A DNA stretch of 44,904 bases, taken from Chloroflexota bacterium. GTDB taxonomy: Bacteria; Chloroflexota; UBA6077; SHYK01. Numbering within the stretch: position 1 is the first letter of the stretch; the number at the start of each line of letters is the position of its first letter. A program made the position numbers and the translations under genes. The notes below the pieces were generated by a model, which saw only the letters and a list, made by a program, of their open reading frames with translations, made no database searches and had not been told where the DNA came from. This document shows positions 4,469 to 17,830 of this stretch, in pieces. The stretch is from NCBI GenBank assembly GCA_035652535.1, contig DASRDP010000065.1:1-44904 (forward strand). Direction: 5' to 3'.

Positions 4469-5170
4469 TCAGCGTGCCGCCGACTTTGGCGGCTCGGATG
4501 TGAGTCGGATTCCGAGGCCGCGCACGGTGATCAGCATGCCCACCGCGGCGGGGTCTCTCTCGACCTTTCGGCGGAGGCGATGCAGCGCCACGCGCAGTGA
4601 CTCGATCATACTCGGGTCCTGCGTCTCACATGCGTGTTGCAGGAGAACGAAGGTTGGAACAACGGAATCCGCGTTGAGCATCAGGCAGCGAAGGAGTCGG
4701 AACTCCGTCAGGCTGAGATTGAGCGGCGCGCCACTGCTACGGACCTCGTGGCGACGCTCGTCGAGCGTGAGCGGCCCGACCCGGATGACCGATTCGGCCT
4801 GGAGCGGAGCAGCGGCCGCCGTGCGGAGACGAGCGCGAATCCGTGCCAAGAGCTCGCGATAGCCGAACGGCTTGGTGACATAGTCATCAGCGCCGAGGTC
4901 CAGACCGAGGACCCTGTCCTCCTCAGCAGTGCGTCCGGTCAACAACAGAACGGGGACGCTGTGCGTGCGTCGAAGCTCACGGAGCAAGTCGAAGCCAGAT
5001 TCGACGCCGAGGTTCAGATCGAGCACGACGAGGTCTGGCGGGGCAGTCTGGATCTCGAGCATCGCCGAGCGCAGATCGTCGGCGCTGGCCACGGAGTAGC
5101 CCGCACGACGGAGCGCGTCGCCCAGGATGTCCACCAATTCAACGTCGTCGTCGACGAGGAGAATTCTCAC
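4469..5170 (-). CDS. OmpR/PhoB-family response regulator 1
   Basis: Cytoplasmic two-component response regulator, 233 residues. The receiver domain (about 1-120) keeps the acidic pair D7/D8, phosphoacceptor D51 (VVLDLNL), T78 and K100-P101 (YVTKPFGY). The C-terminal winged helix (about 130-225) has TEFRLLRCLMLNADSVVP and a recognition-helix region SLRVALHRLRRKVE. The start is a GTG whose GTGA overlaps the kinase stop, so translation is coupled to the upstream kinase gene. It is the last gene of the unit running from TadE at 10609. Its DNA-binding domain closely resembles that of the second regulator (15243-15950), so both may read the same operator. That shared target is inference. Confidence 0.93.
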   Translation of the reverse strand: MRILLVDDDVELVDILGDALRRAGYSVASADDLRSAMLEIQTAPPDLVVLDLNLGVESGFDLLRELRRTHSVPVLLLTGRTAEEDRVLGLDLGADDYVTKPFGYRELLARIRARLRTAAAAPLQAESVIRVGPLTLDERRHEVRSSGAPLNLSLTEFRLLRCLMLNADSVVPTFVLLQHACETQDPSMIESLRVALHRLRRKVERDPAAVGMLITVRGLGIRLTSEPPKSAAR

Positions 5171-6936
5171 GCGGCGGCGTCCGCCAGCGGGAGAGTGATC
5201 CAGAAGTGAGTTCCGCGGCGGGTCTCGGTGTCGAGTCCGACGTTGCCACCATGCGCCTCGATCGTGCTCTTTACGATGGCGAGGCCGAGGCCAGCGCCGG
5301 GAAGCTGGAGGGAATTGGAGCCGCGGAAGAAACGGGTAAAGACGTTGCCCCGCTCATCAACGGGTATGCCCGGGCCACGATCCTCGACCGTGATTCGGGC
5401 GAACCCATTGGCCGTGTCGACTCGGACGCACACAGGCTCACCGGCGGGTCCGTACGTGGACGCGTTGCTGAGAAGGTTGACGAGGGCCTGGACCACGTAC
5501 CGATTGTGGGCGCGAACGACGAGCCGCTCGTCGGCGACGTCGAAGTCGAGCCTTTGGTCGCGGCCCTCGAGGAGCGGGGCGACGGCATCCGCCGCTTCCG
5601 CGAGGATGGGCATCAGGAGGGTGGGGCGCGGTTTGATGACGAGCCGGCCCGACTGGATGTTCTCGGCGCTCAGCAAGTTGTCCATGAGCGTGTGGAGCCG
5701 GGTAGCCGTGCGTCGGCCAGCGCCTACCAGGTTCGCATATTCGCGAGCGCTCAGTTCGCCGGACTGTGTCGCCAGGATTTCGAGCACGTTCTCGACCACT
5801 GCGAGGGGCGCGCGAATTTCGTGGGCGACGAGCGCCATGTACTGCTCGCGCTGTCGGTTTGCGGTGTCCATCGCGGCAGAGGCGAGGCGCACGTCGATCG
5901 TGCCGCCAGCCAGCCGGACGTGTGCCTGCATGAGGTCAATCTCCCACGGCTCGTATCGATGCGCGTCGTCGTGGACGAGCAGGAGGACGTAAACGCGGTC
6001 GGTGGTGATGCGCCCTGCCACGAGAGTCAGGACCTGCGCACCGCATTCCAGCAACTCGGATGGCACCGTGGATGGTCGGTCGATGCTCGGAGCGATTTGG
6101 ACGCTGGCGCCGCGCCGCAGGTCGGCCAGTGTCTCGCCTGAGAGGATCGCGGCGACGTGCCAATCCTGCAGAGGGCAGCGCCCGCGGTGGATGGCCAGCA
6201 CGTCTACGGCCGCCGCCGCGCCGATGCTGCAAAGGGCGACGGCCTCGGCGCGATAGCGGTGGGCGGCCATTTGCGCGATGATTTCGGCGATTCGGCTTGG
6301 GTCCTGCTCGCCGGCGAGGCGAGCCGCGACGGCGGCCAGCTCCTCGGACCCGGCGATCCGCCCCGCCAGCTCGAGGCCGACGGCGTGGAGGCGCGCCGAG
6401 ATCTCGCGCTGCTCCTCCAGGCTCTTCTGGAGCGCCTCGCCGCGCTGGCGCGCGATCCGCGCATTGAAGGCCATGCTCTGGGTGGCGATGGCGGTGACGT
6501 TGAGGCCGAGATAGTTGAGGAGCAGGTCCGCTAGGGGCACTGCCGTGCGGGCGCCGAGCGCGTGCGCGAACGTGGCATAGGCGAAGGAGACGTAGAGGAG
6601 GTGCGCGACGGCCACCGAGGCGCGCTGGGACCGGCGGACCGAGACGGCCACGGCTCCGGTGTAATAGAGCCCAAGCATGACGCCCTGTTGGCGCGGGGCG
6701 AGCGTGTACGCTGCGCCGAAGCTGATCGCCGCAATGATCGGGAGGAGGAGCGAAGGTTTGCGCCAAATCAGCTCCGAGGTGAGCGCGACCGCACCAATGA
6801 GGCTGAACGCGCCAGCGAGCATGCCCTCCGACAGGAGCCATTCGCCGTAAATCAGAAGCGCGGCGGACACCACGAGCTCCATCACGGTATGGGACTGGGC
6901 GAACCGCTGGAGGGTCTGGTGAATTCGTGCGATCAT
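5167..6936 (-). CDS. Membrane sensor histidine kinase 1
   Basis: Partner kinase of the downstream regulator, 589 residues. Residues about 18-155 form roughly six hydrophobic segments with short loops, so there is no large external domain. A coiled-coil-like linker (about 160-185) and a GAF-like region (about 195-350) follow. Then comes the HisKA domain with phosphorylatable H372 (ALVAHEIRAPLAVVE), and an ATPase domain with N-box NLLSNASTYGP, G1 VEDRGPGIP and G2 GAGLGLAIVK. All catalytic boxes are intact. It lies 29 bp after the TadG/RCC1 gene and overlaps the regulator by 4 nt, and so is probably cotranscribed with the Tad genes from the operator near 10.7 kb. The signal sensed is unknown; a membrane or intracellular cue is likely from the topology. 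Confidence 0.92.
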   Translation of the reverse strand: MIARIHQTLQRFAQSHTVMELVVSAALLIYGEWLLSEGMLAGAFSLIGAVALTSELIWRKPSLLLPIIAAISFGAAYTLAPRQQGVMLGLYYTGAVAVSVRRSQRASVAVAHLLYVSFAYATFAHALGARTAVPLADLLLNYLGLNVTAIATQSMAFNARIARQRGEALQKSLEEQREISARLHAVGLELAGRIAGSEELAAVAARLAGEQDPSRIAEIIAQMAAHRYRAEAVALCSIGAAAAVDVLAIHRGRCPLQDWHVAAILSGETLADLRRGASVQIAPSIDRPSTVPSELLECGAQVLTLVAGRITTDRVYVLLLVHDDAHRYEPWEIDLMQAHVRLAGGTIDVRLASAAMDTANRQREQYMALVAHEIRAPLAVVENVLEILATQSGELSAREYANLVGAGRRTATRLHTLMDNLLSAENIQSGRLVIKPRPTLLMPILAEAADAVAPLLEGRDQRLDFDVADERLVVRAHNRYVVQALVNLLSNASTYGPAGEPVCVRVDTANGFARITVEDRGPGIPVDERGNVFTRFFRGSNSLQLPGAGLGLAIVKSTIEAHGGNVGLDTETRRGTHFWITLPLADAAA

Positions 6937-6965: not shown

Positions 6966-9512
6966 CTATTGACGCAGCTCTCCACGAATTTGCCCTGCAA
7001 TGCTGCGAAAAGCGTCGGAAAGATTGATGCTGGTGTCACCCTTCAGTAACGGGTAGTAGTGGTCGCAGCCAATTTTTGATGACGAGATGTGGATCAGCTC
7101 CCAGTCCACGGACATGGCGGACGCGGGGACTGTCGTCTCAAGGCCCTCGGCCGAAGTTCGGTTGGCGCAGTGGTGGGGCGTACCGGTGAGGCCGCTCGCG
7201 CCCGCTTTGAAGATCCCCACGGTGAAGATCTCCACATCGTCGCACGGGGGATTCGTGGTCTGGAGGCATGGCGACTCCTGCACGCCGTTGGCCCCCTTTT
7301 TTAAGCGGATGGCGTCCTGGATTGAGTTGAAGTCGGCGGGCCCGCAGTGCGTGATCAAGGCGTCGCACGTCTGGGTGTTTGGCGGTGCTCCCGGGTAGGT
7401 AAGGTTGTTCTGGCCGTCAGTCATCAGGATGAAGAACTTCTTCGCCTCGGGTCGGCCTCCGTTCGCGAAGATGTTCCAATCAGGAGTCCCTTCTTTGAAC
7501 ACAATGTCCACCGCTGCCCGGTGGTAGGTGCCGGAGCCGCCTACCGCGTCGAGGTAGCACATATAGGTGCCAGGTGGCTGGGCGGGCATGGTGAAACTTG
7601 GCTGGGGAGGCAGGGTCGGGCACGGCGGCACGGGCGCAGGGGTGGCCGCGGCCATCACGAGCTGGTTCCGATCGGCCGTGAGGGGGATGAGGACGTGCGA
7701 GTCTAGCGCGAGGCCGGTGCATGCCACGGCGAGCGTGTGGCCGCCGGCTGCCGTGCCGCCTGCGGAAGCCCAGGTGACGTTGACGACATCGTAGTTTGTG
7801 ACGGGTACGTGGTGCTCGGTGGGTACGTCGCCAGTGCCCAGCTCGCCGTGGGCGTTGCTCCCCCAGACCCAAAGCTGCTTGAAGTTGTCGACCGCGACGC
7901 TGTGAGAATAGCCGGCATAGACGCGCACGATCGCGTCTCCTGCAGGGATGACGAAGCTCACCTGGCGTGGGCTTCGGGAGCACGGGGTGGCCCCAACGGT
8001 GCACGGGGTTGCGTCCACCACGTCGTTGGTCCCGAGCTGGCCGTTGGCGTTGCTGCCCCAGGCCCAGACGGTTCCATCGCTGAGGACCGCGAGGCTGTGG
8101 TTGGCGCCGGCAGCAATGTGGATAACGTTCGCCGGAAAGTCGATCGCGGCGGGTGTAGGCACGTCGTTGTTATCCGTGCCGTTTCCGACCTGGCCGAAGG
8201 TGTTGTCGCCCCACGACCAGATTCGGCTGAGGTTGTTGCTCATGACGACCATGCTATGGTCTCTCCCGGCTGCGAGGAGGGGCAGGCCATCTGCGCCGGG
8301 CTGCGGATTCGTACTCCCGGGGAGCCCGGTGACGGCGGCGGGGGTGGTATGAGCGGATCCGTCCGTCGTGCCGAGGCCGAGCTGGCCGTGGGTGTTATCG
8401 CCCCACGCGTAGACACGCGTCGCGCCGGCTCCCGTGGAGGCAAGGCTGTGCGCCCGGCCCGCGGCGATGCCCGTGACGCTCACGCTGCTCAGCGGGGCCC
8501 CTGGGGTGGTCGGGGTGCCGTCGTCCGACGTGCCGTTCCGGCCGAGCTGGCCCCGGTCGTTCCTTCCCCACGTTTTGAGGTTCCCCGTTCCCGTCCCAAA
8601 GCGTGCCAGGTTGTGGTCTCCGCCCGCTGCGATTTGGCTCACGGTCGTGCTGGGGGAGATGGTCTGCTGGTTGTTGAAGAATGCTGTTGCCGACCCGTTC
8701 ACCTGGTGATGGTCGTTGAGTCCCCAGGCCCTCAGTTTGGGGGTGCCGGACGCAACGGCTGACAGGCTGTGGTTGCCGCCGGCGGATACTTTGACCGAGT
8801 TGGCTGGGTCCGATGTGACGGGCACCCAGCGGTCCGTCGTGCTTGAGTCGCCGATCTGACCGCTGGCGTTGTAGCCAAATGCCACCACGCCGGAAGAGGT
8901 TGCGCAATCTTCGCCCTGGAAGGCCGCGAGGGCGATCTTGTTGGTGATGGGGTTGCTGACGTTTAAGTTGAGGGCATCAACGAACGCAGCGACGGCAGCT
9001 CGCAGCTCTGGTAACGTACCCGGGTCTTCCGTCTGCATGCTTTGCGTAAGGTCCACGACGATCGCAATATCGTTGTCGCCGCGACCCGGTGCACCCACCG
9101 CGGATCGCTTGAGGGGAATGTTGTTGATGCCGACGATCCGCCAAAAGAGGGTGGGCTTGTTGCGCGTGACCTCGACCTTCATCGTGTCGAGCTGGCCGGT
9201 GTTGGGGTCGGTCGTTTCGGCATAGTGGATTACGTCGCCCTTGGCCGTGGAATACCCCTGGTTGTTGAGAAACGCCGTTGCCGTCGCCTCGCCAGATATG
9301 GCGCCGGGCGTTGGCGCGTAGAGCATCCCTCGCGCGCCCGCGAGCGCAGCCGTATCGATGGCGTTTTGGATGCTTTGCTCCTCGACGAGAATCGATCCGT
9401 AGTCGATGCCCGATCCCACGGCGAGGATGAGCATGAACACGGCGACGGTGAGGAGCACCATCATCTGCCCAGGGTGTCGGCGCCGTGCACGGAATCCCCA
9501 GGGGTTTTTCAT
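6966..9512 (-). CDS. TadG-like protein with a seven-repeat RCC1 propeller inserted in its vWA domain
   Basis: An 848-residue envelope protein. Residues 1-140 form a TadG/TadE-type N terminus: basic start, one hydrophobic segment (17-36), then QSIQNAIDTAALAGARG, the Tad signature. A von Willebrand A domain begins at 148 with the metal site DLTQS (154-158). It is interrupted from about residue 205 by seven RCC1-like repeats, seen as FGYNASGQIGD (212), WGLNDHHQVNG (263), WGRNDRGQLGR (315), WGDNTHGQLGL (370), WGDNTFGQVGN (434), WGSNANGQLGT (485) and WGSNAHGELGT (550). The vWA fold resumes near 597 (VLIPLTADRNQL) and carries MTDG (697-700). Several cysteines suggest disulphides outside the membrane. 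vWA domains bind ligands through a metal site; RCC1 propellers are protein-interaction platforms. An adhesin or pilus-tip-like role is inference. Confidence 0.88.
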   Translation of the reverse strand: MKNPWGFRARRRHPGQMMVLLTVAVFMLILAVGSGIDYGSILVEEQSIQNAIDTAALAGARGMLYAPTPGAISGEATATAFLNNQGYSTAKGDVIHYAETTDPNTGQLDTMKVEVTRNKPTLFWRIVGINNIPLKRSAVGAPGRGDNDIAIVVDLTQSMQTEDPGTLPELRAAVAAFVDALNLNVSNPITNKIALAAFQGEDCATSSGVVAFGYNASGQIGDSSTTDRWVPVTSDPANSVKVSAGGNHSLSAVASGTPKLRAWGLNDHHQVNGSATAFFNNQQTISPSTTVSQIAAGGDHNLARFGTGTGNLKTWGRNDRGQLGRNGTSDDGTPTTPGAPLSSVSVTGIAAGRAHSLASTGAGATRVYAWGDNTHGQLGLGTTDGSAHTTPAAVTGLPGSTNPQPGADGLPLLAAGRDHSMVVMSNNLSRIWSWGDNTFGQVGNGTDNNDVPTPAAIDFPANVIHIAAGANHSLAVLSDGTVWAWGSNANGQLGTNDVVDATPCTVGATPCSRSPRQVSFVIPAGDAIVRVYAGYSHSVAVDNFKQLWVWGSNAHGELGTGDVPTEHHVPVTNYDVVNVTWASAGGTAAGGHTLAVACTGLALDSHVLIPLTADRNQLVMAAATPAPVPPCPTLPPQPSFTMPAQPPGTYMCYLDAVGGSGTYHRAAVDIVFKEGTPDWNIFANGGRPEAKKFFILMTDGQNNLTYPGAPPNTQTCDALITHCGPADFNSIQDAIRLKKGANGVQESPCLQTTNPPCDDVEIFTVGIFKAGASGLTGTPHHCANRTSAEGLETTVPASAMSVDWELIHISSSKIGCDHYYPLLKGDTSINLSDAFRSIAGQIRGELRQ

Positions 9513-9548: not shown

Positions 9549-10082
9549 TCAGCCATTCGGAATCGCCGGCTCCGCCAGCATGTACATCGTGTAACTTGGC
9601 AAGCTCGTCGGGATCCCAACTTGAAACCGACCGGGGATGCCGAACACGTGCGGGAGGAAGATGTTCGGGCCTGCGTCGTAGGAGACCGTCACGCTGATCA
9701 CGTCGTTGCGCGCCGCAACGCGGATCGGCTGATTGGCTGCATCGACGCATCCTAGGATGGGGTCCACGGTCATGCATGGAGGGCAAATCTGGATGCCCTT
9801 TAGGCCAGGGTTCGGTATCCCGCTGGATGGGCACGTCGCCTTGGGCATCTGGGCAGCGGTCAGGTTCGATGGGATGCGAGCAACAATCTGGGCGATATTC
9901 GTGTCATCGGTGTTGTGTGGGTGCACGGCGACCCACCGCGCGGCGTCACGGGTGATGTTCAAGACACTCAGATACGTAAGAAAGAGGATTATGAGTTGGA
10001 GGAGCGCAAGGCCAAAAAACACGATAATGGGCAGCATCAGGGCGAACTCGACCAGTGCCTGGCCCCTTGACCTGACCCTCAT
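9549..10082 (-). CDS. TadE-like pseudopilin protein
   Basis: A 177-residue TadE-family protein. The short basic N terminus is followed by GQALVEFALMLP and one long hydrophobic segment (about 12-38), the processing and membrane region typical of TadE/TadF pseudopilins. A beta-rich extracellular part with cysteines follows (CPSSG, CPPC, C in the middle). Its ATG overlaps the stop of the upstream TadE-like gene by 4 nt, and 36 bp separate it from the TadG/RCC1 gene. In Tad systems these proteins are exported minor components of the Flp pilus; here no Flp pilin or Tad motor gene is present in the window. Confidence 0.88.
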   Translation of the reverse strand: MRVRSRGQALVEFALMLPIIVFFGLALLQLIILFLTYLSVLNITRDAARWVAVHPHNTDDTNIAQIVARIPSNLTAAQMPKATCPSSGIPNPGLKGIQICPPCMTVDPILGCVDAANQPIRVAARNDVISVTVSYDAGPNIFLPHVFGIPGRFQVGIPTSLPSYTMYMLAEPAIPNG

Positions 10083-10609
10083 TCCATCACCATCGAAGCG
10101 CTATAGGTGCGCGGGCCGGTGGGGATTCCGACGTGGAAGCTGCCGATGTTCGCGCCCGCGGGAAAGAAAATCACGCCCGATGCCTGGATGTCGTACGTGG
10201 CGGTGACCGTGATGGCGCCGCTTGGGGCACGCCCTGCGCACTTGGGAGGTATCGAGCTGTCCAGTGACGGGCAGGATGGATCGATTGAGAGCTGGATCAA
10301 CGACGGCCGGAGGGTGAGCGGGTTGCCGGAAGCATTGGCGACCGGTGTGCCCTGTGGGTTGACGAAGTTTTCCCCTCGCGCGTGATGGAGCGCGTTCGCG
10401 TCGACAGTGTCGCCCCAGTTCACGGCGAGCCACCGGGTCGTTTCGCGGGTCACGCGCATGAGGCTATATTGCTGTAGCGCGATTACGCCCATCTGGACTA
10501 CCGGTAGGAGCGTGAGCAGAAAGACCGTAATGACCAGGGCGAATTCGACGATCGCTTGACCGTTCGGTCGAACCCGCACCGCTAACCGGGACAAGACTGC
10601 TTGTGTCAA
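10079..10609 (-). CDS. TadE-like pseudopilin protein, first gene of its unit
   Basis: A 176-residue TadE-family protein with GQAIVEFALVITVF at residues 17-30, a transmembrane segment to about residue 45, then an extracellular domain with a CPSLDSSIPPKC pair. It resembles the next gene in length and layout (C-terminal GANIGSFHVGIP versus GPNIFLPHVFGIP), so the two look like an old tandem duplication. It is the first gene of the minus-strand unit that ends with the response regulator at 4469. The operator at 10661-10718 lies 51 nt upstream of its start codon. Confidence 0.87.
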   Translation of the reverse strand: MTQAVLSRLAVRVRPNGQAIVEFALVITVFLLTLLPVVQMGVIALQQYSLMRVTRETTRWLAVNWGDTVDANALHHARGENFVNPQGTPVANASGNPLTLRPSLIQLSIDPSCPSLDSSIPPKCAGRAPSGAITVTATYDIQASGVIFFPAGANIGSFHVGIPTGPRTYSASMVME

Positions 10610-12895: not shown

Positions 12896-14053
12896 TCAGC
12901 TACTCAAGCGCACGATCAGCGGCCCGTTATCGCCGGGGTGAAACTCTGTGCCGGTCCCGCCCGACACAATGGCCGTCCCAACTAGATGCGCCTTCGTGCA
13001 GTTGGCGGCGGTGCATCCGGAAGGAGGTGATCCACCTGGCAAGAGCTGGAAAACCCCCCACGTAACGACGCACACATTGCGGGTCGGTGGCGCGCCATCG
13101 CGGGTGCAGTCATTGCCATGCGTTGGGTCGTTCGCATTCACCATAATCGGCAGAACGGTGAAACAGTTTCCTGCCTGCACCTCGGCGGAGTCGTGGCAGT
13201 TAGGCAATCCGGCAATCGTGGCACGGATGGGACCGGCGTGGTCTCCAGGCTGGTACTGCATCCAGCACGGGACCTCTGGATCGCAGTCCAAGTCGCCGTC
13301 GTCGCCTTTGAATGACGATCCCGCCCATCCGCAGCCACCATCGCTCTGGCCAACTTTGCTTCCGTGGACAACGAAAATGGGTGCCGTTGGCGTCGGCGCT
13401 GGTGGCGTCGCCGTGAGGTTAAAGATGACCTCAGGGCGAATCGACGGTGGGGTGTGAGAATAGTCCAGGAGCCCGCCGGGAAAGAACGTCAAGTCCTGCA
13501 TCAGGCCGTCCGCGCAAACCACGATCGGCGGATTGGTGCCTCCGGTCAGCACTTGGAGATTGGCCGTCGCCTGCGCATTGACGGTGAGGGTCGAAAAGCC
13601 GGGGACGAGCTTGACGAAGAACGTCGGAAACGTCTTGGTGACCATGACTTTGACACCGGTCGCCGATGCCTGTGATACAGCCGCCCCGGCGTTGTCGATG
13701 AAGCTCCACGACGTTGAAACGACGGTGGATCCGCTCGACGCGCCGGCGTTCGCCGTGGCGTTGGACGTGATATCGGTGTTGAAGTTGGGCGATGCGGGCG
13801 GGGTGCCCAACGATCGCGCCAGATCCGCCAGACCCGCCAGCGCTCCTGCGTCAGCGCCATTCTGCGCCGCCCGCCGCTGGGCCAGCATGTTTCCGCCGTC
13901 GATGGCAAGGCCGACCGCGGCCATGATGGGGATGAGCGAGAGAGCTGCCAGCACGAGAACCTGCGCGCGCCTCCGGGGTGGGCTCGGCGGTTTCCTCTGC
14001 GCACCTCTCCCGCTCGGTCCGATCCTTCCTACGCGGATAGCCGGTTGCATCAT
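12896..14053 (-). CDS. TadG-like (Tad domain) protein
   Basis: 385 residues. A basic Arg/Pro-rich N terminus is followed by one hydrophobic segment (AQVLVLAALSLIPIMAAVG, about 30-48) and the Tad signature GLAIDGGNMLAQRRAAQNGADAGALAGL. The large C-terminal part is probably extracellular, with many cysteines (CGW, CDPEVPCW, NCHD, NCTRD, NVCVV, CTAANC). No vWA metal motif is visible, unlike the TadG/RCC1 protein in the other unit. It starts 4 nt before the end of the upstream TadE-like gene (ATGA overlap). Tad-domain proteins are exported and anchored by the N-terminal segment; cargo or partner unknown. Confidence 0.82.
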   Translation of the reverse strand: MMQPAIRVGRIGPSGRGAQRKPPSPPRRRAQVLVLAALSLIPIMAAVGLAIDGGNMLAQRRAAQNGADAGALAGLADLARSLGTPPASPNFNTDITSNATANAGASSGSTVVSTSWSFIDNAGAAVSQASATGVKVMVTKTFPTFFVKLVPGFSTLTVNAQATANLQVLTGGTNPPIVVCADGLMQDLTFFPGGLLDYSHTPPSIRPEVIFNLTATPPAPTPTAPIFVVHGSKVGQSDGGCGWAGSSFKGDDGDLDCDPEVPCWMQYQPGDHAGPIRATIAGLPNCHDSAEVQAGNCFTVLPIMVNANDPTHGNDCTRDGAPPTRNVCVVTWGVFQLLPGGSPPSGCTAANCTKAHLVGTAIVSGGTGTEFHPGDNGPLIVRLSS

Positions 14054-14478
14054 TCGACGACCATCTCGGCGGAGCTGGTCAGTGTCAGGGTGCCCGGTAG
14101 CTTGATGAAGGCGACCGGCGCGTACGGGTAGCTCACCGTCACCTTGATGAGGTCACCGGCGGCGCGTGGCGTGGCGGTGGAAAAGGCGACAGGCGTCTGG
14201 TTGGCGACCGGCGTCGCGGAGTCCACCGAATAATTGGAGATCTGCACGACGGCGGTGGCCCCTGGGGCGATGATGACCTCCCGCACGCGGGCGGTGACCG
14301 TCGCGTCGTTCCTACCGGCGATGGCCCCGGTTCGCGCTCCCTCGCGCGCGGCGTTGGCGACGCTCGAGTACTCGAACATCAAGCGTCCCAGCTCGAATAC
14401 GCCGTAGAGCAGCACGAAGAACGCGCTCCCGACGATGGCAAACTCCACCATGGCCTGGGCTAACGTCAATCGCGTCAT
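14050..14478 (-). CDS. TadE-like pseudopilin protein
   Basis: 142 residues from the ATG at 14478, which overlaps the preceding TadE-like stop by 4 nt. The N terminus MTRLTLAQAMVEFAIVGSAF matches the TadE pattern (Q-x-M-V-E-F-A), then a transmembrane segment to about residue 30, then NAAREGARTGAIAG, the helix common to TadE proteins. The C-terminal half is beta-rich (LIKVTVSYPYAPV). An upstream-extended reading frame exists but lacks homology and covers the neighbouring gene. Confidence 0.87.
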   Translation of the reverse strand: MTRLTLAQAMVEFAIVGSAFFVLLYGVFELGRLMFEYSSVANAAREGARTGAIAGRNDATVTARVREVIIAPGATAVVQISNYSVDSATPVANQTPVAFSTATPRAAGDLIKVTVSYPYAPVAFIKLPGTLTLTSSAEMVVE

Positions 14479-14933
14479 AGCATCTGCATGGTGGCTGAGC
14501 GGGTGAAGTGCTCCGTGCTCCCCAACACGGCCTTGACCATCGGTGTGAAGAAATTGACGTCGTAGGTCACCGAAACGGTGACTTGCTGCTGAGAAGCCGG
14601 CGTGGTTGGAGAAATGGTGATATTTCCGTCGGGGATCGAGAGCCCTGGAGCCGCCCGCTTCACTGTGGCTTTCACACTCGGCGTGAAGCTGGCTGAACTC
14701 GAATCGGCGGTGATGGCGTAGCGAGCGCCCTCGCGGGCCGCGTTGCGGACGGTCACGTCGTAGTAGAAGAAGCGGCCGATATCTACCGTCGCGGACAGGA
14801 CGAGCACGAGCGGGATCCCGATGAACGCGAACTCCACGAGCGATTGGCCGCCCTTGCGTCCAATCGTTCGGCAGCCGCCGCGCAGGGCAGCGTCGAGTCG
14901 GCGAATTGTCATCGAATGACACCCGTCCACCAC
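14475..14933 (-). CDS. TadE-like pseudopilin protein, first gene of its unit
   Basis: 152 residues. GGQSLVEFAFIGIPLVLVL (about 28-46) is the TadE membrane signature, followed by VTVRNAAREGARYAI and a beta-rich exported domain. The GTG at 14933 has GGGAGAA seven bases upstream; the ATG at 14912 lacks a ribosome site, so the GTG is preferred. It is the first gene of the unit 14933 to 11801 (TadE, TadE, TadG, secreted protein, membrane protein), and operator site C lies 99 nt upstream. Confidence 0.87.
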   Translation of the reverse strand: MVDGCHSMTIRRLDAALRGGCRTIGRKGGQSLVEFAFIGIPLVLVLSATVDIGRFFYYDVTVRNAAREGARYAITADSSSASFTPSVKATVKRAAPGLSIPDGNITISPTTPASQQQVTVSVTYDVNFFTPMVKAVLGSTEHFTRSATMQML

Positions 14934-15032
14934 GGTTCTCCCGGCGAGGATCCCTCGCGACCTGTGCCCGGTGCACCCGCGCCCTTCGCCGGGTGCAGCG
15001 TGGTTCTTCCTAAACGACAGGTTACGGGCGTA

Positions 15033-15242: not shown

Positions 15243-15950
15243 CTACGCCTCCTCGGCGGATGGGTCGGCGCTGAGGCGAATCCCCACACCGGTGACCGTG
15301 AGGAGGAGCTTCGGGTTCGCCGGGTCGTCCTCGATCTTTCGCCGAAGCCGGTGGAGGGTCACGCGGAGGACGTCGGCCGCGCCCGGGTCCGTCTCGCCCC
15401 AGATCTGTTGCAGCAAGGTCCGCGTTGGCACCACGGCGTCCGCGTTGAGCATGAGGTACCGGAGGAGGCGGAACTCTGTGACCGTGATGTCCAAGGGGCG
15501 GCCGTCCTTGCGCACCTCGTGGCGACGCGCATCGAGCACGAGGGGCCCAACCTCCAGCACTTCCGCTGCCGGCGCTGGCTCCGGCGTCGTGAGGCCGCGC
15601 GTGCGCAGGCGCGACCGGATACGCGCCAGCAGCTCGCGATAGCCGAAGGGCTTGGTGAGATAGTCGTCCGCGCCGAGATCGAGCCCGAGCACCTTGTCAT
15701 CCTCGGACGTCCGAGCGGTGAGCAGCACGACCGGCAGGTCGGACGTCCGTCGCAGCTCCTTCAGGATGTCAAAGCCGGACGTTCCGCTCAGGTTCACGTC
15801 GAGCACGACGAGGTCCGGGGGATTCTCGCGAATCTGCCTGTACGTCGACGCCGCGTCCACCGCCTGGCTGACCGAGTAGCCGGCCCGGCGCAGGGCGCCA
15901 TCCAAGATGTCGAGCAGATCCCGATCGTCGTCGACGAGGAGAATGCGCAT
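15243..15950 (-). CDS. OmpR/PhoB-family response regulator 2
   Basis: 235 residues. The receiver domain has D7/D8, phosphoacceptor D51 (VVLDVNLSG), T78 and K100-P101 (YLTKPFGY). The winged-helix domain has TEFRLLRYLMLNADAVVPTRTLLQ and the recognition region DVLRVTLHRLRRKIE, closely matching regulator 1. Its ATG overlaps the kinase TGA by one base (TGATG). It is the natural candidate, with regulator 1, to bind the TGTAA operators around it, including site D upstream of its own operon. The family is certain; the target assignment is inference. Confidence 0.94.
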   Translation of the reverse strand: MRILLVDDDRDLLDILDGALRRAGYSVSQAVDAASTYRQIRENPPDLVVLDVNLSGTSGFDILKELRRTSDLPVVLLTARTSEDDKVLGLDLGADDYLTKPFGYRELLARIRSRLRTRGLTTPEPAPAAEVLEVGPLVLDARRHEVRKDGRPLDITVTEFRLLRYLMLNADAVVPTRTLLQQIWGETDPGAADVLRVTLHRLRRKIEDDPANPKLLLTVTGVGIRLSADPSAEEA

Positions 15951-17830
15951 CAGCCGGCGTCACTGACCGGCAGGGTGAACCAGAAGCGGCTCCCAACGCC
16001 GAGCTGAGTCTCGAATCCGACCGTTCCTCCGTGCGCCTCGACCACGGCCTTCACAATGGAGAGTCCCAGCCCGACACCCGGCTGCTGACCCGAGCTGGAT
16101 GCGCGATAGAAGCGCTGGTAGAGTCCCGCCCACTCTTCGGGCGGGATCCCGGGCCCCGTGTCCTCGACGCTCATGCGAATAAACCCCGTCGCGAACTGAT
16201 CTGCTCGAACGCGAATCACGCCGCCGACCGGCCCATAGGTGGATGCGTTGATCAGCAGGTTGGTCAGCGCCTGAACGATATAGCGTGAGTGCGCCATGAC
16301 GAACACGCGCACGCTCGGCAGCTCCGTCTCGATCCGTTGATTTCGTCCTTCCACGAGGAGGGACACGCTGTCGATCGCCTCGGCGACGATCGCCGCGAGG
16401 GCTGTCCGGCGCGGGGACACGACGAATCGGCCGGACTCGACGTTGCCCGCGCTCAGGAAGTTGTCCATCAACGTATGGAGCCGCATGCTCGTGCGCCGCG
16501 CGGTACTGACGACTTCGTCGAACTCCTTGGTGCTCAGGTCGCTGGCCTCGGTGGCCAGAATCTCGAGCGCGCCTTCGAGGACGGCGAGGGGCTCCCGAAG
16601 CTCGTGGGCCACGTAGTACACGAGCTGCTCCTTGAAGCCGCTTGCCTCCACCACGTCGTGGAACTGGGCGTGGAGTCTGAGCCGGGCCTGCTCCAGCTCG
16701 GTCGCGACTGGGGCGAGCTCGGCGTCGGCGATCTGGGGCACGGGCGTGTCCATGTCGCCCTGGCGCATTCGGCCGGCTGCTGCCGCGAGCGCCATCGCCG
16801 GCGCGGACTCTCGGGTCCGCCACACGTGCAGGATCGCCGTGCGAAGAACGGCGAAGACGATGAGAATCGGGATCGCGAGGATGATGATTCTTCGCGGCTC
16901 GCTCGCGTCGCTGACTGCACTGAGGGCCAGAGTGGCCACGGGCGTGCCGTCGATGCCAACGAGGGGTGCGAAGAGCGCCCGGACGTGGCCGCCCGGCGTC
17001 TCGCGGTCGGCATACGCCGTCTGGCTCGCCGCTGTTTCCGGGGCCCCGCCGAGCGGGTCGGCGCTTCCGATTCCCGTTCGGATCCCGCGCTGATCGGACA
17101 TGGTGGAGAGGAGCAGCTCGCCTCCGACGTAGAGGCTGGCGTCGAGGCCCGTGCGCTGGCGAATGGCGTCCAGACCCGGGGCGTCCAGGTGCGAGACGAG
17201 CGCGAGCACGGCGACGAGGTTACCGCCCTCCCGTTCGACCTTGGGCACGAACGCGACAATCGCGGGGAACCGACCGGAGCAGAGAACCAGACCAGCCGTC
17301 TCGTGGCCGGCGGCGAGGGAAGTGAAGCCTGGCAGCTCGCGCATATGCTGCTGATCGGTGCAGCGATGGTCGGCGGAGCGTTGGGCCAGCACCGCCCCGG
17401 AGGGGTCAGAGACGACGATGTTGTCAACACGGGGAGCGACCCGCAGGGCGCCAAGTTCGCGCGCCAGCGCGAGCGGATCGGCCGAGATCAGCGCCGCGTC
17501 GAGGCTGGCATCGTCGGCGAGGAGGTATCCGAGCGCGACCAGCTCCCCGCGCGTCTCGTCGATCTCCGCTTGAAGGAGACTCGCTTCGCCGGCGAGCCGC
17601 GCGTCGATCTCTTGCTGGATGTGCTGCTGGAACACCCAGGTCGTTGGGAAGAGAATGACGGTCACCACTGCGCCGATCTCAATGATATGGAGCGCAAACG
17701 ATCGCGCGATGGCCCAGCGTCGGCGCCAGAGGATTGCGAGTTGGCCGATGTTCAGCAGAGGCTGGCGCACGATAGGCGATTCCTCGGAGCGAGCGCGGGC
17801 CAGGGGCACCCGTTGCGTCCCCGCAGCCAT
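15950..17830 (-). CDS. Sensor histidine kinase 2 with a large extracytoplasmic sensor domain
   Basis: 626 residues. A basic N terminus precedes membrane segment 1 (about 43-68). An external domain of about 245 residues follows (69-312), with the look of a double Cache/PAS-like sensor (DNIVVSDPSGAVLAQRS, then FPAIVAFVPKV). Membrane segment 2 (about 313-336) leads to a HAMP-like linker, a HisKA domain with H409 (YYVAHELREPLAVLE), and an ATPase domain with N-box NLLINASTYGP, VEDTGPGIP and GVGLGLSIVK. From the H-box on it resembles kinase 1, while the input halves are unrelated, so the two kinases probably read different cues into similar regulators. The external ligand is unknown. Confidence 0.93.
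   Translation of the reverse strand: MAAGTQRVPLARARSEESPIVRQPLLNIGQLAILWRRRWAIARSFALHIIEIGAVVTVILFPTTWVFQQHIQQEIDARLAGEASLLQAEIDETRGELVALGYLLADDASLDAALISADPLALARELGALRVAPRVDNIVVSDPSGAVLAQRSADHRCTDQQHMRELPGFTSLAAGHETAGLVLCSGRFPAIVAFVPKVEREGGNLVAVLALVSHLDAPGLDAIRQRTGLDASLYVGGELLLSTMSDQRGIRTGIGSADPLGGAPETAASQTAYADRETPGGHVRALFAPLVGIDGTPVATLALSAVSDASEPRRIIILAIPILIVFAVLRTAILHVWRTRESAPAMALAAAAGRMRQGDMDTPVPQIADAELAPVATELEQARLRLHAQFHDVVEASGFKEQLVYYVAHELREPLAVLEGALEILATEASDLSTKEFDEVVSTARRTSMRLHTLMDNFLSAGNVESGRFVVSPRRTALAAIVAEAIDSVSLLVEGRNQRIETELPSVRVFVMAHSRYIVQALTNLLINASTYGPVGGVIRVRADQFATGFIRMSVEDTGPGIPPEEWAGLYQRFYRASSSGQQPGVGLGLSIVKAVVEAHGGTVGFETQLGVGSRFWFTLPVSDAG

Follow-up and report, generated by a model that had tools for sequence, protein, structure and literature searches.

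The locus at 6966..9512 raises the question of whether one protein can combine a Tad-type pilin module with a single von Willebrand A (vWA) domain that holds a complete RCC1 propeller, and if so, what role such a protein may have. The locus lies in a 44,904-nucleotide stretch of DNA (hereafter, the window) that covers positions 1 to 44,904 of contig DASRDP010000065.1 from a Chloroflexota bacterium (GenBank assembly GCA_035652535.1). On the minus strand, an uninterrupted open reading frame of 848 aa extends from an ATG at 9512 to a stop codon at 6966-6968. Using Pfam and profile searches, we annotated its product as a putative TadG/CpaL-like modular minor pilin with an RCC1 propeller dividing its vWA domain.

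Domain organization of the 848-aa protein

The protein begins with a Tad/pilin module (residues 15-147; 9072..9470, minus strand), the end of which was set by analogy with CpaL (PMC12607857). Pfam identified a Tad domain (PF13400) at residues 15-61 with an E value of 3.6e-9, above the curated cut-off. The hydrophobic stretch of the pilin helix begins after G15, at a class III-like site (GQMMVL); the strict prepilin glutamate at +5 is missing here and likewise in the orthologues. The module is followed by a first vWA segment (residues 148-206, beta1-alpha1-beta2; 8895..9071) assigned from profile alignments, an inserted propeller of seven RCC1 repeats (residues 207-597; 7722..8894) assigned from Pfam, AlphaFold2, and Foldseek, and a second vWA segment (residues 598-848; 6969..7721) assigned from motifs and profile alignments, all on the minus strand. 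An RGD tripeptide (residues 144-146; 9075-9083, minus strand) directly precedes vWA beta-1 (GRGDNDIAIVV); the orthologues lack it, and it is probably there by chance. In promoter and terminator scans, the signal was no higher than in shuffled sequences.

The RCC1 propeller

A sequence-only reading of this locus had counted seven blades of the form WG-x-N-x-x-G-Q-(L/V)-G. The number of repeats holds, with motifs that begin at residues 212, 263, 315, 370, 434, 485, and 550, but the exact motif occurs in only four of the seven; the remaining three read FGYNASGQIG, WGLNDHHQVN, and WGSNAHGELG. Pfam identified six RCC1 repeats inside an RCC1-like domain (RCC1, E value 9e-56; WD40_RLD, E value 6.9e-66 over residues 209-587). 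In the propeller model predicted by AlphaFold2 from an alignment with RCC1 relatives, pLDDT is about 80-95 for most of residues 210-560 and falls to <50 at 563-569 and from 572 onward, where the final strands of blade 7 lie; for closure of this blade, the sequence is thus better support than the model. Using Foldseek, we matched the model to the complete propellers of UVR8, HERC2, and RPGR, and the match to UVR8 has a TM-score (target) of about 0.8 over about 380 columns. The resemblance to RCC1 is one of fold and repeat only, and a secreted bacterial pilin would not be expected to have Ran exchange activity.

Over most of its length, the propeller shares no more than about 37-38% identity with its best RCC1 matches, so none of the sampled RCC1 genes is its recent source. 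At third codon positions, G+C is alike in the insert (0.82) and its flanks (0.77-0.79). Other RCC1 genes are present in the same genome, which holds no further copy of the insert at >46% identity. One protein of this genome, 1607 aa long (L089:1179-5999, contig C144), has an unusual architecture of its own in which FecR, DUF3344, and an RCC1 propeller are joined.

A single vWA domain on both sides of the insert

All five residues of the MIDAS metal site were found: D154, T156, and S158 in the motif DLTQS (residues 154-158; 9053-9039), T662 (7529-7527), which was assigned via a GxGT motif common to the relatives, and D699 (7418-7416), all on the minus strand. The Pfam VWA match is weak and sub-threshold (E value 3e-4, residues 684-705), as expected for a domain that is split. 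We built a family profile from four propeller-free relatives only (in genomes G040, G006, G002, and G010). This profile hits both flanks of the propeller in order, with 141.5 bits over residues 8-234 and 63.6 bits over residues 666-847, and deletion of residues 207-594 lifts its score from 193.9 to 219.1 bits. A Tad-vWA family profile also aligns in the correct order to both halves of solved vWA structures, including that of the fimbrial Mfa5, and PF00092 was detected at an E value of 0.01 or better in 6 of 9 family members.

The border just past the propeller, where MAFFT misplaces residues, was set by profile and local alignments. There, the residues DSHVLIPLTADRNQLVMAA pair with DQTVLTGLTADKAMLIRLA of the G040 protein (p 0.005, 1000 shuffles), and their pairing with the G006, G002, or G010 protein was not significant relative to shuffles. 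AlphaFold2 gave pLDDT <50 across the vWA and pilin parts because the alignment held RCC1 relatives only and none of those parts. It is well supported at the sequence level that the whole propeller is inserted in a single vWA domain of a TadG-like protein. This agrees with the sequence-only reading, which had placed an RCC1 propeller between vWA halves and assigned DLTQS and a later MTDG (residues 697-700) to one domain; both motifs are at those positions, and the RCC1 and Tad matches given above identify the other parts.

The variable loop in propeller-free relatives

Propeller-free relatives from the same order or phylum are 593 aa (G006), 531 aa (G002), 553 aa (G010), and 486 aa (G040) in length, and more distant ones occur in G349 and G276 (432 and 435 aa). 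Based on comparison with these proteins, the propeller sits exactly between Cys203 (8904..8906, minus strand) and Cys598 (7719..7721, minus strand), the N- and C-terminal borders of a variable loop after vWA beta-2 that it replaces. The loop between the cysteines has 9, 9, 23, 31, 42, and 91 residues in the six relatives, with the second cysteine of the G010 protein a less certain counterpart, versus 394 residues in the 848-aa protein. A disulphide between C203 and C598 is predicted. In another genome (G021), an open frame of 253 aa (L084:4910-5668) holds nothing of an orthologue but its second vWA half, possibly owing to a frameshift, decay, or an assembly error.

Gene neighbourhood and Tad machinery

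The 848-aa gene closes a TadE-TadE-TadG triplet on the minus strand. Two genes predicted to encode TadE-like minor pilins (9549..10082, PF07811 E value 9.5e-9; 10079..10609, PF07811 E value 1.1e-7) overlap by 4 bases and are separated from the 848-aa gene by a 36-base gap. TadE neighbours are kept beside the propeller-free orthologues in G006, G002, G040, and G010, and in G040 the orthologue is followed by RcpC/CpaB. Contig C110 of the window's genome, separate from the contig with the triplet, carries RcpC-, TadZ-, TadA-, TadB-, and TadC-like genes and a weak Flp match, of which the RcpC and Flp matches are below the curated cut-off.

On the other side of the 848-aa gene, 29 bases downstream, is a gene predicted to encode a sensor histidine kinase with HisKA and HATPase_c domains (5167..6936), and the gene of an OmpR-type response regulator (4469..5170) overlaps the kinase gene by 4 bases; all are on the minus strand. 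The sequence-only reading had the 848-aa gene cotranscribed with the kinase, which fits the close spacing, but relatives do not keep this pairing. Beside the four orthologues, the kinase/regulator pair is missing, and the genes downstream are instead a peptidase, a transporter, a cytochrome oxidase, and RcpC. A divergently oriented response regulator lies near the G002 orthologue.

The window contains a second Tad/TadE pair (12896-14976, minus strand), which consists of a 385-aa Tad protein without a vWA domain and a TadE protein; it is located ~2.3 kb upstream of the triplet, with small membrane-protein open reading frames in between. Near this pair is another histidine kinase (15950-17830, minus strand) with a weak dCache_3 sensory match. 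Between 18217 and 44577 are several Rieske/LigXa_C oxygenases, three SBP_bac_5 solute-binding proteins, CoxG, and an amidohydrolase, and this part of the window looks like an aromatic-compound catabolic region.

Occurrence of the fusion and of RCC1 genes

The Tad-type family profile matched 152 of 400 genomes in a sample of one phylum. No RCC1 motif was found in the Tad frames read from those 152 genomes (about 20 with a vWA MIDAS motif). The combination of Tad, vWA, and RCC1, for which a domain-architecture search had been proposed together with the sequence-only reading, thus occurs in this gene and in none of the other Tad frames read from the sample, so that the fusion is a singleton in a one-phylum survey. 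Among viral contigs, Tad-vWA family profiles identified no relative, and a protein query identified one RCC1 locus. Among the papers searched, none brought RCC1, vWA, and pilin together.

RCC1 genes occur in 14 of the 29 genomes of the class. Two genomes of the same order, G008 and G009, have 72 and 95 RCC1 repeat matches, respectively, in many separate genes (e.g., L092, L105, and L118), which looks like a lineage-specific expansion in bacteria.

Discussion

We interpret the 848-aa protein as a TadG/CpaL-type minor pilin of a Tad pilus tip, in which an RCC1 propeller, acquired in an insertable vWA loop, would form a second binding head, and we give this interpretation a probability of about 0.72. 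The pilin helix would insert in the membrane, and the protein, probably together with the two TadE proteins, would prime and cap the pilus. The vWA domain, with its complete MIDAS metal site, would project from the pilus end. The cysteine-framed variable loop after vWA beta-2 would have gained a complete seven-bladed propeller in this lineage, and that propeller may give the tip an additional binding head, with other cells or a surface as the probable target. The pilus-tip location is plausible given the triplet of genes, the presence of a Tad machine in this genome, and characterized analogues; along with an adhesive role, ligand binding by the MIDAS and propeller, and a signalling link to the kinase, it is something we infer. 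Points that weigh against our interpretation are the separate contigs of the triplet and the Tad machine, the missing glutamate at +5, the low pLDDT (<50) of the vWA and pilin parts, and the restriction of the fusion to one genome of the survey.

The same tight gene run could be read differently, with the product as a membrane-resident TadG-like envelope protein that has no pilus-tip role and acts as an extracytoplasmic receptor whose vWA domain and propeller bind a ligand and then signal to the adjacent histidine kinase. The gaps of 29 and -4 bases to the kinase and regulator genes are consistent with this, as is the kinase itself, which has an N-terminal hydrophobic region and no recognized extracytoplasmic sensor domain. 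However, the kinase pair is absent beside four orthologues, whereas the TadE genes are conserved, and a Tad machine is present in the genome; we consider a receptor unlikely. Somewhat more doubtful still is a version in which the head formed by the propeller bears load or binds a ligand and is coupled mechanically to the MIDAS via the vWA loop, with the kinase and regulator reading its state. If that were true, the coupled propeller and MIDAS together with the kinase and regulator would form a dedicated pilus-tip sensing module.

The origin of the insert also allows other explanations. A recent non-adaptive insertion, by non-homologous recombination with an RCC1 gene, would leave the propeller passive and perhaps non-functional; the singleton status of the fusion in our survey and the abundance of RCC1 genes, both in the class (14 of 29 genomes) and elsewhere in the same genome, would fit such an event. 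It is hard to reconcile with 848 codons in an intact frame, with nearest RCC1 matches of only about 37-38% identity, and with the similar third-position G+C of insert and flanks, and we regard it as improbable, to about the same degree as the membrane receptor. The genome is a draft in 168 contigs, and an assembly fusion of a Tad-vWA gene with an RCC1 gene was therefore considered as well. Such a fusion would have had to join the genes in frame twice, each time precisely at the loop border, and then resume the vWA domain with its second half; the genome also holds no other copy of the insert above 46% identity, and we reject this explanation as very improbable.

For the Tad tip minor pilin that we favour, each half of the design is already known in other pilus-tip proteins, and their combination was seen in one searched genome. 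The sequence-only reading had proposed a new adhesin or pilus-tip-like architecture. Its tip assignment is plausible for the reasons given above, but the word "new" was too strong because CpaL has an insert-split vWA domain and PilX2 has an RCC1 propeller on a minor pilin. In CpaL of Caulobacter crescentus, a Tad minor pilin, the pilin module (residues 27-147) is followed, as in the 848-aa protein, by a vWA domain whose two segments (148-203 and 384-626) enclose a beta-rich insert (204-383), with a MIDAS formed by D160/T162/S164/T470/D515 (PMC12607857). The first vWA segment of CpaL ends nearly as far from the MIDAS as C203 in the 848-aa protein; however, the insert of CpaL consists of two six-stranded beta-barrels rather than an RCC1 propeller, and cpaL, an orphan, lies apart from the main pilus cluster (PMC12607857), in contrast to the 848-aa gene, which is part of a TadE-TadE-TadG run. 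PilX2 of Nanosynbacter lyticus TM7x is likewise a minor pilin that bears a seven-bladed RCC1 propeller, and its deletion reduced host binding from 10.6% to 4.6% of host cells, equal to the level of a major-pilin mutant (PMC12206443). Unlike the 848-aa protein, PilX2 belongs to a Saccharibacteria type IV pilus and not a Tad pilus, its propeller is C-terminal, and no vWA domain is reported in it (PMC12206443).

Pilins of modular build occur widely, in 264 architectures (PMC8179133). The PilY1/PilC tip adhesins also have a vWA domain and a beta-propeller in one chain, but theirs is an IPR008707 propeller, C-terminal to the vWA domain, in a protein without a pilin module of its own (PMC8179133); an IPR008707/Neisseria_PilC propeller was not found in the 848-aa protein, whose propeller matched RCC1-type families only. 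PilB of Streptococcus sanguinis and RrgA resemble the 848-aa protein in having a pilus-presented vWA domain with a MIDAS flanked by extra arms, although these arms are short, include no propeller, and occur in other pilus types (PMC8179133). TadE/F/G-like pilins make up Tad tips as modular complexes, and in the Kil/Tad tips (KilL-KilM-KilN, TadE/F/G) there are three minor pilins, of which the large TadG-like one has a variable domain; the accessible part of that account describes neither the split vWA domain nor the RCC1 propeller of the 848-aa protein (PMC12075869).

Two recent observations, the insert-bearing vWA domain of a Tad minor pilin and the RCC1 propeller as a candidate tip adhesin, are thus joined in one protein. 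It appears from this that, in Tad tip pilins, the loop behind vWA beta-2 is a site that can accept new binding heads and leave the vWA core intact. In integrin alpha subunits, a vWA domain is inserted in a propeller; the nesting in the 848-aa protein, with a propeller inside a vWA domain, is the reverse.
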